Source: Bacilli bacterium
Lineage (GTDB): Bacteria > Bacillota_I > Bacilli_A > RF39 > UBA660
Assembly (NCBI GenBank): GCA_017513865.1
Contig: JAFWMN010000011.1
Span: forward strand, 1-64,000
Length of the DNA stretch: 64,000 nt
Direction: 5' to 3'
Below, in pieces: positions 8,349 to 13,201 of the stretch; within the stretch, counting starts at the first letter, position 1; each line of letters starts with the position of its first letter. The position numbers and the translations under genes were made by a program. The notes below the pieces were generated by a model. That model made no database searches, was not told the DNA's origin, and saw only the letters and a list, made by a program, of their open reading frames with translations.

Positions 8349-8375
8349 AAAAATAGGATATTACCTATTTTTTTT
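8347..8375. terminator. Bidirectional terminator between convergent genes
   Basis: A 10-bp stem (AAAAAATAGG at 8348-8357 with its complement at 8364-8373) has T runs on both strands. It sits between the plus-strand gene ending at 8348 and the minus-strand gene ending at 8374. Confidence 0.8.
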
Positions 8376-8811
8376 AATTTAATTTTTCTCTTATAATACT
8401 ACTAACTTTACCCATATCAGCTTTTCCTTTAACTAAAGGAGTAACTTCCTTCATAATCTTACCCATATCTTTACTTGATTCTGGTTTGATTTTTTCAAAA
8501 ACTTTTTCAATTATTTCTATAACTTCTTCATCAGTTAACTGTTTAGGTAAATAAGCTGTTAAGATATCTATTTCTTTAGAAGTAGCTTCTATTAAATCTT
8601 CTCTTGCTCCTTTTTCAAATTCTTTAATAGATTCTTTTCTTGTTTTTATCTGTTTAGAAATAACATCAATAACCTCTTCATCAGTAAGTTCTCTTTTTTT
8701 ATTAAGTTCTTCCATCTGCATAGCAGACTTAACCATTCTAATAACAGCAAGCTTTGGTTTATCTTGAGCCTTCATTGCATTTTTTAAATCCTCTAAAATT
8801 TGATTTCTCAT
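8374..8811 (-). CDS. yqeY: GatB/YqeY domain protein
   Basis: A 145-residue all-helical protein with the YqeY pattern: MRNQILEDLKNAMKAQDKPKLAVIRMVKSAM at the start and a C-terminal half like the tail domain of GatB (YLPKQLTDEEVIEII, then DMGKIMKEVTPLVKGKADMGKVSSIIREKL). A role in tRNA or amidotransferase biology is suspected from the GatB likeness but unproven. The ATG at 8811 has GGGAGA upstream; the one at 8826 contains that site. It follows rpsU, the order seen in many Bacillota. Confidence 0.88.
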   Translation of the reverse strand: MRNQILEDLKNAMKAQDKPKLAVIRMVKSAMQMEELNKKRELTDEEVIDVISKQIKTRKESIKEFEKGAREDLIEATSKEIDILTAYLPKQLTDEEVIEIIEKVFEKIKPESSKDMGKIMKEVTPLVKGKADMGKVSSIIREKLN

Positions 8812-8828
8812 AATATCTCCCTTCATTA

Positions 8829-8852
8829 TTCAAAAAGACCAATAATGGTCTT
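8829..8852 (-). terminator. Terminator hairpin between rpsU and yqeY
   Basis: Stem AAGACC with GGTCTT (8835-8852) is followed by a short T run on the minus strand and overlaps the rpsU stop codon. It likely lowers but does not abolish yqeY expression. Confidence 0.6.
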
Positions 8853-9051
8853 AATAACTATTTCTATTTTCTCTATATGCTCTTTTTCTAGTATTTCTAA
8901 TACCTTGTTCTTTTTTTAGTCTACGTCTAACGCCAGGTTTCAAATAACCTTCCATATTTTCTCTAAGTTTCCTGCGGGAGCCATCTTTGTCGACTTTGAG
9001 TGTTCTAAGTGCACCATCGACATTACCATTTCTAACTACTACTTTGGTCAT
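8851..9051 (-). CDS. rpsU: Ribosomal protein S21
   Basis: Small-subunit protein S21 with 66 residues, close to the usual length: MTKVVVRNGNVDGALRTLK at the start and an Arg/Lys-rich helical rest (PGVRRRLKKEQGIRNTRKRAYRE). The longer frame upstream lacks S21 likeness, and GGAGGG lies six bases before this ATG. It precedes yqeY and follows the bacteriocin locus, from which it is separated by a terminator. Confidence 0.95.
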   Translation of the reverse strand: MTKVVVRNGNVDGALRTLKVDKDGSRRKLRENMEGYLKPGVRRRLKKEQGIRNTRKRAYRENRNSY

Positions 9052-9124: not shown

Positions 9125-9152
9125 ATAAAAAAAGTGAGAAATTTTCTCACTT
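9125..9152 (-). terminator. Strong terminator of the bacteriocin operon
   Basis: Stem AAGTGAGA with TCTCACTT (9132-9152) followed by T7 on the minus strand. It overlaps the stop codon of the second peptide gene. Confidence 0.85.
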
Positions 9153-9312
9153 ATATTCCGCAAGGTTTATTAGATGTTACTCTTCTAATAGTAGATCCTA
9201 AACTTTTTCCGAGTTCCATAAGCATAGTAACACCCTTAACAATCGCGTTTATTAAAGTAGCCGAAATATATCCTCCACTTATTTTTAAAAGGCTTTCTTT
9301 ATCTAATATCAT
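9151..9312 (-). CDS. Double-glycine-leader peptide 2 (putative two-peptide bacteriocin)
   Basis: A 53-residue precursor. Residues 1-14 (MILDKESLLKISGG) form a typical double-glycine leader, cut after GG by C39 peptidases. The predicted mature peptide has 39 residues (15-53), beginning YISATLINAIVKG and ending SNKPCGI. It is cationic and amphipathic, with a GxxxG motif (GKSLG, 35-39) and one Cys at 51. GAGGTG lies 7 bases before the ATG, and the start overlaps the end of peptide 1 by 14 bases, so the two are made together. Family naming is from the leader and context; no known bacteriocin was recognised. Confidence 0.8.
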   Translation of the reverse strand: MILDKESLLKISGGYISATLINAIVKGVTMLMELGKSLGSTIRRVTSNKPCGI

Positions 9313-9442
9313 TAATACACCTCACTGGATTTAAAAAGCCATCAATCATGCTGATTAAAAAAGCGATTGCCGCTCCTATAGAAGTAGCTAAACCAAAACC
9401 ACCACCAGATAAATTCATAAGTTCTTTTTCATCTAATTTCAT
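9299..9442 (-). CDS. Double-glycine-leader peptide 1 (putative two-peptide bacteriocin)
   Basis: A 47-residue precursor. The leader MKLDEKELMNLSGG (1-14) closely resembles that of peptide 2 and ends in GG. The predicted mature peptide has 33 residues: a Gly/Ala/Ile-rich, membrane-seeking helix (GFGLATSIGAAIAFLISMI) with GAAIA as a GxxxG-like motif, then DGFLNPVRC and a charged end; one Cys at 42. AAAGGA lies 5 bases before the ATG. It begins 11 bases past the exporter stop. The pairing with peptide 2 fits class IIb bacteriocins, though quorum-sensing peptides are an alternative. Confidence 0.8.
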   Translation of the reverse strand: MKLDEKELMNLSGGGFGLATSIGAAIAFLISMIDGFLNPVRCINDIR

Positions 9443-9453
9443 AAAAATCCTTT

Positions 9454-11448
9454 CTAACTGCGCACTTCATCTAAAACAACTTTTCCCTTATCTAATTTTA
9501 AAAATCTATCAAACAAATCTAAATTATCAAATCGGTGTGAAATATAAATAATTGTTTTATTCGTATACTCTTTAAATAGCCTTTTTAATATTCTCCTTTC
9601 CATATTAATATCAACTTGACTTAACCCTTCATCGATAATTAAAACATTAAAATTAGTAAGCGCTCTAGCTAAAACAATTCTTTGTCTTTGACCATCTGAA
9701 ATATTAAAACCATCTTCTTCTATTAACATATTATAATCATCAACAAATTCGTCTAGTTCACATATTTCGTTATTTTTAAAATTAAATAAATTATCAATAA
9801 TTCGCCCAGTAAATAATATTTCTCTAGGTGAAACATATAAAACATTTTTAAAACTAAACTTATTGCTTTCTTTTCCATCAACACAAACATTACCATCATA
9901 ATCATCATAATAGCCTTTAACAATTTTAAATAAAGTACTTTTACCTGAGCCACTTTGACCACTTACCATTAATTTAGTGCCGTTTTTAATATTTAAATTA
10001 ATATTATTTAAAACTTTATCTACTTTATTAAAACTATAATTTAGATTTTTAATACATATATCACCATTAACTAATATATTTTCTTTTCTGTTTTCCTTAA
10101 TAAAAAGTTCTCCAATATGCTCAATAGAACTTTTAACTTCATTAATTTCAAAATCAAATTCCAAAATACTTTTAAAAGAACTATTAAATAAATTTGAAAG
10201 CAAAAATATAGTTATAAACATTTCTATAGGAAAACCATTTCTTATACTAATAGTCCCATAAAATATAATTAATATAATGTTTAAATTACTTATTATTTCC
10301 CTAAACAAATACTCAGTATTCTTAATTTTATCAAATTTTTTACTAATATCTAAATACTTTATATACTCATTTTCAAAATCAAAAATTCTTTTTTCCATAA
10401 TACCTATATTTCTAATAGTTTCATAACCTTTAATGCTTTCCACAATATATGAATTAATAAAAGCCTTCTTTCTTAAAAGTGAATCTGTTAAATAATAATT
10501 CTTATTTTTAAAATATAAATACAAAATAAGATACAAACTAACGGTAAACATATTAATAATAAAAAATTGATAACTAATAAAAAATAAAAATATAGCTAAC
10601 AAAATTATTAAAGGAATGTTTATAAAGATAGTAATAGACAAATTGTTAATAACATTTTTAATCAAAAACAAATCACTAAAATAACTAGAAATTTCCCCAG
10701 TTGTTTTATTTTTGCAGTAACAATAAGGAAGATAAATAATATGACTAAAAGTATTTATAGAAAGATTTCGGTCAATATTTTGATTAATTTTAATTATTAT
10801 TAAATTTCTAACATAACCAGCAATTATTATAAATAAAAGTAAAAATGAAAAAAGTAAAATGATTTTCATTAGAAAAAAACTATGAATATTCATAATCACT
10901 GCTTGAATAAAAAATGAAGAAAAAATAGAAGCAATAGAAATAATTAATGAAAGAAAACTAATAATAATTAAATATTTAATATTTGGCTTTATAAGCTTAA
11001 ACAAAAACTTAAAAACACTAACCTCCTTTTCCTTAATAAGTTTTCTTTTTAGAGTCATAGAAATAATAACACCAGTAAATATAGATAAAAATTCATCAAA
11101 ATTCATTTTTATTATTCCTTTTGAAGGATCTCCTATAATAAGATATTTCTTTTTAAAATTAATCTCATATATCACCACATAATGGTTGTAGGAGTCTATA
11201 TTTATAAGGGCAATACATGGGCATTTTATTAAAGAAAAATCTTTATATTTATATCCTTCACTATCAAAACCTAATGACTTTAAAACTTCAACCATATGAT
11301 AAGCTGTTGTTCCTTTATTATTAGTACAAAGCATATCACTTAATTTATCTAAACTTATATAACCACCGTAATACTTTAAAATCATTAAAATACATGCCGG
11401 TCCACAATCTTTCAAACCCCTTTGTTTAACAAAAGGATACTTTTTCAT
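9454..11448 (-). CDS. Peptidase-containing ABC exporter (C39, bacteriocin processing and secretion)
   Basis: Cleaves double-glycine leaders and exports the peptide. The N-terminal C39 protease has Gln9, Cys15 (QRGLKDCGPAC), His89 (YNHYVV) and Asp107 (GDPSKG). A six-helix ABC membrane domain spans about 150-430. The ATPase domain has Walker A (GQSGSGKST, 497-505), signature ISDGQRQR (583-590; the usual SGGQ has Asp here), Walker B with Glu607 and H-loop His638. Length 664 is slightly short for the family. GGAGGTGA precedes the ATG. It heads an operon with the two peptide genes; no immunity protein or accessory protein gene was seen. Confidence 0.92.
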   Translation of the reverse strand: MKKYPFVKQRGLKDCGPACILMILKYYGGYISLDKLSDMLCTNNKGTTAYHMVEVLKSLGFDSEGYKYKDFSLIKCPCIALINIDSYNHYVVIYEINFKKKYLIIGDPSKGIIKMNFDEFLSIFTGVIISMTLKRKLIKEKEVSVFKFLFKLIKPNIKYLIIISFLSLIISIASIFSSFFIQAVIMNIHSFFLMKIILLFSFLLLFIIIAGYVRNLIIIKINQNIDRNLSINTFSHIIYLPYCYCKNKTTGEISSYFSDLFLIKNVINNLSITIFINIPLIILLAIFLFFISYQFFIINMFTVSLYLILYLYFKNKNYYLTDSLLRKKAFINSYIVESIKGYETIRNIGIMEKRIFDFENEYIKYLDISKKFDKIKNTEYLFREIISNLNIILIIFYGTISIRNGFPIEMFITIFLLSNLFNSSFKSILEFDFEINEVKSSIEHIGELFIKENRKENILVNGDICIKNLNYSFNKVDKVLNNINLNIKNGTKLMVSGQSGSGKSTLFKIVKGYYDDYDGNVCVDGKESNKFSFKNVLYVSPREILFTGRIIDNLFNFKNNEICELDEFVDDYNMLIEEDGFNISDGQRQRIVLARALTNFNVLIIDEGLSQVDINMERRILKRLFKEYTNKTIIYISHRFDNLDLFDRFLKLDKGKVVLDEVRS

Positions 11449-11516: not shown

Positions 11517-11547
11517 AACAAAAAACTTTAGAAAAATTCTAAAGTTT
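11517..11547 (-). terminator. Terminator after rsmD
   Basis: An 11-bp perfect stem (11523-11533 with 11537-11547) followed by TTTTTTGTTT on the minus strand. It isolates the bacteriocin operon, which must start inside 11449-11520. Confidence 0.8.
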
Positions 11548-11555
11548 AATAATAG

Positions 11556-12077
11556 TTATGACCTATATATTTGAATAGTTTTAGGCCCATAACTTTTTTC
11601 TTTTATAAGCTCTAAATTTGTTTCGATTTTAATGTTTTCAAATTCACAAACCACAATACCACCTTTATTAAGTATTTCTCTTTCTTCAATAATTCTTAAA
11701 GCTTTATTCATAAGATCTGCTCTATAAGGTGGATCTAAAAATATAATATCAAATTTTTCATTAGTCTCTTTTAAATACTTTTTATAATCTATATTTAAAA
11801 TCAAAATATCATCATTGAATGATTTTGTAGTATCTTTTAATATATCAGTAATTTTTTTATTATTATCAGTAAGTACTAATCTTTTAGCCCCATTACTAAT
11901 AGCTTCTATTCCTAAAGAACCACTACCTGCAAATAAATCTAAAACTACTGCATCAGGCACATAACTTTGAATCATCCCAAATAATGATTCTTTAACTCTA
12001 TTCATCGTTGGTCTAGTGCCTTCTATATCATATGCATTTAATTTTTTACCTTTATATTTTCCACTAATAATTCGCAT
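11556..12077 (-). CDS. rsmD: 16S rRNA (guanine966-N2)-methyltransferase
   Basis: SAM-dependent enzyme that methylates G966 of 16S rRNA during small-subunit assembly. Seen: MRIISGKYKGKKL at the N-terminus, the SAM-binding motif DLFAGSGSLGIEA at about 47-59, and the catalytic LDPPY near residue 117. At 173 residues it has typical length. GGTGA precedes the ATG. The order ylbD-ylbE-rsmD matches the Bacillus ylb region; coaD, its usual partner, is not present here. Confidence 0.95.
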   Translation of the reverse strand: MRIISGKYKGKKLNAYDIEGTRPTMNRVKESLFGMIQSYVPDAVVLDLFAGSGSLGIEAISNGAKRLVLTDNNKKITDILKDTTKSFNDDILILNIDYKKYLKETNEKFDIIFLDPPYRADLMNKALRIIEEREILNKGGIVVCEFENIKIETNLELIKEKSYGPKTIQIYRS

Positions 12078-12706: not shown

Positions 12707-13201
12707 CTATGAATTTTGAACATAATCTAATTTGACTGTAAGTGAAGCATTTAACACACTAGGTTGCATCGTAACCGCATTATTATAAGAAACTATCACT
12801 GTAAATACATCGGAAGATCCTGCAGTTAAAACATCACCTTCAGCTATTCCACTAGTTTGAAATATAATAGCTGGATTATTAGAATCAGTAAGTGTTATTT
12901 TATCTACTTTAGCGTCAACTGTTCCACTATTTTTTACTGTAACATCATAAGTCATACTATCGCCAGGAGAAACTAAAGTAGTTTTAAAAGTAGCTGATGT
13001 TTTAGTATAAACTGGAGGATTAGTATCTGATGCATCTCCTATTTTATTTTTACTTTCAATATTTATTATTTCAACATCCCAACTAGTATCAATGCTTGCT
13101 GTACCATTTATTTTAAGATTAGTACTAAAAGCTGCAAATCCAATAGCTAATAAACATACAATACCAATCAAAACAAAAATAATTACATAACTTTTTTTCA
13201 T
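12707..13201 (-). CDS. TasA/camelysin-like secreted protein (copy A)
   Basis: A 164-residue secreted protein. The signal segment (3-25) ends in GFAAF, the SipW-type site in which cleavage leaves a mature N-terminal Phe. Then comes STNLKINGTASIDTSWDVEI, shared by four proteins in the window. The rest is an all-beta domain containing VSPGDSMTYDVTVKNSGTVDAKV and ending LDYVQNS. It groups with the protein at 22618 rather than with the two longer ones. It has its own promoter and lies about 8 kb from the SipW-like gene. A structural, fibre-forming role is inferred. Confidence 0.72.
   Translation of the reverse strand: MKKSYVIIFVLIGIVCLLAIGFAAFSTNLKINGTASIDTSWDVEIINIESKNKIGDASDTNPPVYTKTSATFKTTLVSPGDSMTYDVTVKNSGTVDAKVDKITLTDSNNPAIIFQTSGIAEGDVLTAGSSDVFTVIVSYNNAVTMQPSVLNASLTVKLDYVQNS

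Follow-up and report, generated by a model that had tools for sequence, protein, structure and literature searches.

A family-wide locus for two GG-leader peptides and a C39-peptidase ABC exporter in the order RF39: a class IIb-like candidate

A C39-peptidase ABC exporter and the two small genes directly behind it, here called pepA and pepB, most probably provide (probability about 0.68) a two-peptide, class IIb-like membrane-active agent together with its export, and the system would be kept by its carriers as a core trait. This reading is drawn from comparative sequence analysis. Judged by the genomes sampled, the locus is family-restricted, near-universal, single-copy and syntenic. The starting point was the window, a stretch of 64,000 nucleotides (positions 1 to 64,000 of contig JAFWMN010000011.1, assembly GCA_017513865.1; a Bacilli bacterium of the order RF39, family UBA660), and the lineage is represented here by metagenome-assembled genomes only. 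The original prediction, made from the letters of the window, had pointed to a C39-exported peptide pair, and this part of it stands; what it did not capture is that the locus, rather than being an isolated accessory one, is near-universal and syntenic across the family.

Results

Layout of the locus in the window

The genes lie on the minus strand in the order rsmD, C39 exporter, pepA, pepB, terminator, rpsU and yqeY, with the following features:

11556-12077, minus strand: rsmD, flank outside the system (Pfam Cons_hypoth95, 1e-51)
about 11525-11548, minus strand: A+T-rich hairpin and T-run between rsmD and the exporter (by eye)
9454-11448, minus strand: C39-peptidase ABC exporter, 664 aa (Pfam PF03412, PF00664, PF00005)
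9299-9442, minus strand: pepA, 47-aa precursor with a 14-aa GG leader and a 33-aa core (sequence; orthologues)
9151-9312, minus strand: pepB, 53-aa precursor with a 14-aa GG leader and a 39-aa core (sequence; family profile)
9132-9152 (read 9152-9132), minus strand: intrinsic terminator directly 3' of pepB (9-pair stem and T-tail)
8851-9051, minus strand: rpsU, downstream flank (TIGR00030)
8374-8826, minus strand: yqeY, after rpsU

The positions originally given for the exporter and both small reading frames proved correct, all three being on the minus strand. The pepA gene starts 11 nt past the exporter stop and has a good Shine-Dalgarno sequence (AGAAAGGA), and the start of pepB lies within the end of pepA, the two reading frames overlapping by 14 nt. 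The short gap, the Shine-Dalgarno sequence and the overlap suggest a single operon from which exporter, pepA and pepB are probably translated together. For rpsU, the start listed at 9150 reflects a GTG read-in, and the gene proper begins with the ATG at about 9051.

Terminators had been proposed on both sides of the locus. The terminator scan found two terminator-like sites in the region vs. 0.4 expected and supports the one after pepB. The upstream hairpin was recognized by eye; the scan did not call it, its G-C pairs being below the threshold, and we regard it as the probable terminator of rsmD, which is the upstream neighbour in most genomes of the genus. Further upstream of rsmD, the window encodes a 164-aa secreted protein (12707-13201) with weak matches of the camelysin/DUF11 type.

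The exporter matches Peptidase_C39 (PF03412; 110 bits, 7e-32), ABC_membrane (PF00664) and ABC_tran (PF00005). It has the architecture of TIGR01193, scoring 286 bits against that model, under the cut-off of 524, and it scores 225 bits against NF045998 (NCBIfam). In the host genome, it is the sole match whose alignment begins at the C39 end of the query; all others are ABC-only. At E <= 1e-60 the exporter was found in 42 of the 44 genus genomes, with a partial copy also in G009.

Sequences and motifs of the two peptides

The pepA precursor consists of the leader MKLDEKELMNLSGG and the 33-aa core GFGLATSIGAAIAFLISMIDGFLNPVRCINDIR, and the pepB precursor of the leader MILDKESLLKISGG and the 39-aa core YISATLINAIVKGVTMLMELGKSLGSTIRRVTSNKPCGI, just as predicted. 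By their sequence, both leaders are typical C39 substrates. The monoisotopic masses calculated for the cores are 3464.83 (pepA) and 4134.27 (pepB), which would give about 7597.1 for an oxidised 1:1 heterodimer. Within the genus, pepA leaders not ending in Gly-Gly were seen only in L014 (G037), where the end is KAS (MELTTNELKMVKAS), and in L024 (GD).

The cores had been described as hydrophobic and cationic, which holds for pepB (pI 10.0, GRAVY 0.47, clearly cationic) but not for the charge of pepA (pI 6.0, net charge about zero, GRAVY 1.03); across the whole set, the mean core charge is +3.2 for pepB and +0.5 for pepA. The expected small-residue motifs are present, a true GxxxG in the window pepB and a GxxxA-type motif in its pepA. 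When genus and family are taken together, GxxxG occurs in 120/120 pepB cores vs. about 31 expected in shuffles, and in 100/119 pepA cores vs. 58 expected, with a small-xxx-small motif in all 119 of the latter.

Each window core carries one Cys close to its end, and this feature, too, turned out to be conserved across genus and family. Every one of the 119 pepA and 120 pepB cores contains Cys, in 112 of each a single one, and the pepA residue stands in a P-x-x-C context in 112/119. Two exceptions lie outside these counts, a divergent Cys-less peptide in G194 and a pepB devoid of the terminal Cys in G219 (L177). Across 39 pepB sequences aligned from the whole family, the sole invariant positions are the leader GG, G35-xxx-G39 and Cys51. 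AlphaFold2 predicted the cores, 33-39 aa in length, as a single continuous helix each, with moderate confidence (pLDDT 69 and 65).

Since each partner has a lone Cys, no intramolecular bond is possible, and a heterodimer would therefore be the natural product upon oxidation, homodimers being possible as well. The two Cys residues may form an inter-peptide disulphide. The case for an enzyme-made bond is weakened in that no DsbB or DsbA-type (Thioredoxin_4) enzyme was found in 12 genus genomes, although the same searches were positive in control genomes.

Conservation and selection in the genus

The trio of exporter, pepA and pepB was found in 41/41 testable genus genomes, far more than chance would give, and the peptides are thus conserved together with the exporter. 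Forty of them have the exporter and readable downstream DNA, and all 40 carry both peptides; the remaining one is G009, whose contig begins inside the exporter and which also has both. Two genomes were untestable because of a contig end about 110 bp past the exporter, and G036 (81% complete) has neither exporter nor peptides.

The dN/dS values of 0.32/0.28 for the cores vs. 0.55/0.53 for the leaders, rough figures with dS near saturation, indicate that the pepA and pepB frames are under purifying selection. Mean identity to the window is 0.51 for the pepA core, 0.55 for the pepB core and 0.47 for the exporter. On average, the cores are thus better conserved than the exporter; an arms race acting on the core would be expected to give the reverse. 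Neither of the outcomes named beforehand as speaking against the prediction, an exporter kept with the frames lost or frames free of purifying selection, did occur, the dN/dS of the cores being about 0.3.

Distribution across the family and class

In related genomes, the pepB profile matched 356/386 family genomes, 144/150 genera and 242/252 high-quality genomes. It also matched 110/117 genomes in an order-level sample consisting wholly of this family, and 29 of the 31 family members in a class-level sample. In the other sampled families of the class, no genuine pepB was found with profiles A1 and A3. G433 was rejected as a carrier from outside the family, its match being confined to the leader, and the few weak non-family matches to A3, eight of them in family f4, were set aside as leader-type or partial.

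Where examined, the f4 matches are longer GG-leader proteins encoded near greA or rplU, with no adjoining C39 exporter. They include proteins of 73-130 aa (L249-L254, e.g., G433:C1:578341-578424), often with an [AS]GALLNG-type start; several adjoin rplU or greA, and they form a separate GG-leader family in mycoplasma-like genomes.

About 8% of the family genomes are devoid of the locus, some via assembly gaps. Where pepB was missing, the C39 exporter was mostly missing too, incomplete assemblies accounting for part of these cases. We searched again for the exporter in 15 genomes having no pepB match or no full exporter. Most had no C39 exporter. In G283 and G108 the locus runs into a contig end, both peptides are in fact present in G009, and G194 has kept the exporter along with its divergent Cys-less GG peptide. 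Among the genomes examined, we found no relative with the exporter but clearly without the peptides. Divergent versions of the locus were seen in genus g8 (L184 in G194 and L179 in G050) and in L180 (G088), where several GG peptides follow in a row, possibly as a duplicated pair.

Gene order, accessory protein and orfC

In the survey of the family we read another 80 loci, for the most part one or two from each genus; 76 of them have a recognisable exporter. In 76/76 of these, the order is exporter-(accessory)-pepA-pepB on the same strand. The downstream neighbours are rpsU in 41/76 and yqeY in 34/76, with ybeY and dgkA further downstream in the loci whose flank reaches them. Prepilin-like N-terminus proteins (e.g., MKNNKGFIAISLIYSFFLVFL...) are encoded directly downstream of pepB in L109, L113, L129, L134 and L144-L146, and a reading frame with collagen-like GPV/GPA repeats lies beyond yqeY in L055 (G013).

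The accessory gene is present between exporter and pepA in 51/76 loci, and its product, about 140 aa long, has a single membrane helix at the N-terminus. In 31/76 loci (about 40%), a further frame, orfC (38-70 aa), begins within pepB, 6-25 nt ahead of the pepB end; its product has no GG leader and a single hydrophobic stretch, as in a small membrane protein. GxxxG occurs in 30/31 orfC products vs. 3.9 expected in shuffles, and the pepB tail can recur in the orfC tail (e.g., LGNYVGTKIRYIADGKIC). The accessory gene is present in 28 of the 31 orfC loci (Fisher p = 4e-4, uncorrected for kinship).

On these sequence features, orfC is the best candidate for an immunity gene. The earlier remark that no immunity gene is visible holds for the window and its genus, from which both the accessory gene and orfC are absent; it may not extend to the many relatives carrying orfC, though none was recognized in 45/76 family loci. 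The genus groups with accessory-bearing clades on a quick exporter tree with many forks open, which suggests that it has lost the accessory gene.

A related exporter locus in mycoplasmas

In a family (f15) called mycoplasma from its gene content and TGA codons, a C39-ABC exporter and a MAG1140-family protein are encoded directly upstream of ybeY-cdd-era. Seven such loci were examined (L233-L239: G741, G573, G579, G746, G679, G476, G526), and none has a pepA/pepB or any other GG-peptide gene nearby. The Mbov_0121/MAG1140 locus (NF045998/NF045999) thus combines a C39-ABC exporter with the same accessory protein as in the family of the window, some of whose accessory proteins match the MAG1140 family along its length (best E 1e-4); from the genus of the window, by contrast, the accessory gene is absent. 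As to placement, the mycoplasma locus is upstream of ybeY-cdd-era and the family system upstream of rpsU-yqeY and, where reached, ybeY-dgkA. The shared location and the shared pair of proteins suggest that the exporter has a common origin and that mycoplasmas have since lost the peptides, a conclusion based on synteny and weak similarity. In the literature, Mbov_0121 was found named merely as a database match.

Discussion

How the system may work

The close spacing and overlap observed in the locus make it likely that exporter, pepA and pepB are expressed together, presumably by co-transcription. From what is known of the exporter family and from the invariant GG, the C39 domain would cleave each precursor behind Gly-Gly, leaving the ABC exporter to release the cores, each of which is predicted to form one membrane-spanning helix. 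The two peptides would pair via their small-xxx-small faces, above all the pepB GxxxG. Their C-terminal ends would meet, the two lone Cys might become linked, and the paired peptides would permeabilise target membranes. In many relatives, orfC, which carries the GxxxG motif of pepB, would protect the producer. The genus of the window has no orfC and therefore must resist otherwise, e.g., by lacking a receptor.

The pair is probably retained because these gut bacteria, auxotrophic for fatty acids and amino acids, would rely on outcompeting their neighbours or on making them leak nutrients. FabF was found in none of the 12 genus genomes searched (0/12), and these genomes appear to have lost fatty-acid synthesis. 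This agrees with a report that the order RF39 has lost its pathways for fatty acids and for several amino acids (PMC6784871). To a cell in need of the lipids and metabolites of others, a membrane-active agent of universal occurrence might be of use.

Alternative explanations

As a rule, loci for bacteriocins are patchily distributed, move between genomes and change fast. The near-universality, conserved cores and fixed synteny of the present locus are unlike those of ordinary bacteriocins and count against the best explanation. They would fit an exported pair that sits in the producer's own membrane or surface, as disulphide-linked helices with a housekeeping role, which would explain why the locus is a core one and has no immunity gene. 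Pointing the same way are the purifying selection seen in the cores, the single C39 exporter in the genome and the 45/76 loci with no recognized immunity gene. Still, we consider such an envelope component unlikely, as GxxxG helix pairs fit toxins better, orfC resembles an immunity gene, and about 8% of the family genomes do without the locus, assembly gaps included; to our knowledge, there is no precedent for a GG-leader, C39-processed pair as a part of the envelope. Somewhat less probable again is a two-component pheromone that would leave the cell in the manner of ComC or BlpC and be perceived by family members nearby. GG-leader pheromones do share the export route, the conservation would favour a shared signal, and single weak matches to pheromone models were obtained, but no conserved sensor kinase or regulator adjoins the family loci, the cores take the form of long, hydrophobic membrane helices in which GxxxG is invariant, and an obligate signal pair would be unusual. 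The short and unannotated frames might even be taken for chance reading frames or non-coding remnants behind a housekeeping exporter; this is ruled out by about 116 loci in which the frames are conserved along with their leaders, motifs and order, and by the purifying selection.

We thus prefer the membrane-active two-peptide agent. Its most far-reaching version would be an ancestral, vertically inherited, disulphide-joined two-peptide pore needed by the whole auxotrophic, genome-reduced gut family, neutralised in many species by orfC, a membrane protein resembling pepB, and serving a core life-style trait, such as making neighbours release lipids and other nutrients, instead of being an optional weapon, with the exporter shared by descent with mycoplasmas and the peptides lost there. 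Taken as a whole, this version is tentative and rather doubtful.

The system is near-universal in at least 150 genera, mostly uncultured and with genomes of about 1 Mb, where it often stands beside rpsU, and such retention implies a function that the cells can hardly do without. It offers a concrete handle on the gut life of auxotrophic lineages, many naturally matched peptide pairs with which to study two-peptide pores, and a testable idea for the orphan mycoplasma exporter.

Comparison with known bacteriocins

We found no paper linking RF39 to this locus and no text describing a family-wide locus of this kind. Some of the peptides may already be listed in the IIBacFinder atlas of gut class II bacteriocins; as far as the commentary describing it is concerned (PMC12648078), the family-wide core, the synteny, the invariance of Cys and GxxxG, and orfC are not described there.

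With class IIb bacteriocins such as lactococcin G, enterocin 1071, plantaricin EF/JK and carnobacteriocin XY, which have one helix per peptide, the locus has in common two adjacent differing genes, GG leaders, a C39-ABC exporter, cores predicted as helical and GxxxG-type motifs; the core lengths of 33-39 aa lie within the roughly 25-60 aa of the class. The well-known members of the class (as defined in PMC6957408) have a dedicated immunity protein, and most of its well-studied peptides have no Cys (PMC10100652), whereas in the window system each peptide bears a single invariant Cys, the genus has no immunity gene, and the locus is a near-universal core of the family. Its peptides are also under the cut-off of every class IIb model. 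The window pepA scores 17.3 bits against TIGR03949 (lactobin A/cerein 7B; cut-off 21.5), the match being mainly to the leader, and 16.8 bits against NF038034 (lactococcin G-beta/enterocin 1071B; cut-off 37). At E up to 0.1, lactococcin G-beta was matched by 22/25 and cerein 7B by 20/25 members of the pepA alignment, and the resemblance to the lactobin A/cerein 7B family lies in the pepA leader and the start of the core. Profile searches against the PDB gave weak matches only, the best being a C39 leader peptide. The class IIb assignment of the original prediction is thus upheld as to the C39-exported two-peptide design and not as to model cut-offs, immunity gene and pepA charge. Because of the sub-threshold scores and the operon having no immunity gene, the system is best described as one that would work like class IIb rather than as a proven member.

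Gallocin A of Streptococcus gallolyticus is likewise a Cys-bearing pair, with two Cys per peptide, intramolecular disulphides and a hairpin fold (PMC10100652). The two-Cys, hairpin features of its subclass are absent from pepA and pepB, which have one Cys each and a single predicted helix, so that any disulphide here would be an inter-peptide one; nor was a thioredoxin-like helper such as BlpT of the gallocin locus seen in the window system. The gallocin immunity peptide GIP resembles the toxin peptides and has been proposed to protect via competition (PMC10100652), and it is the nearest precedent for the role proposed here for orfC.
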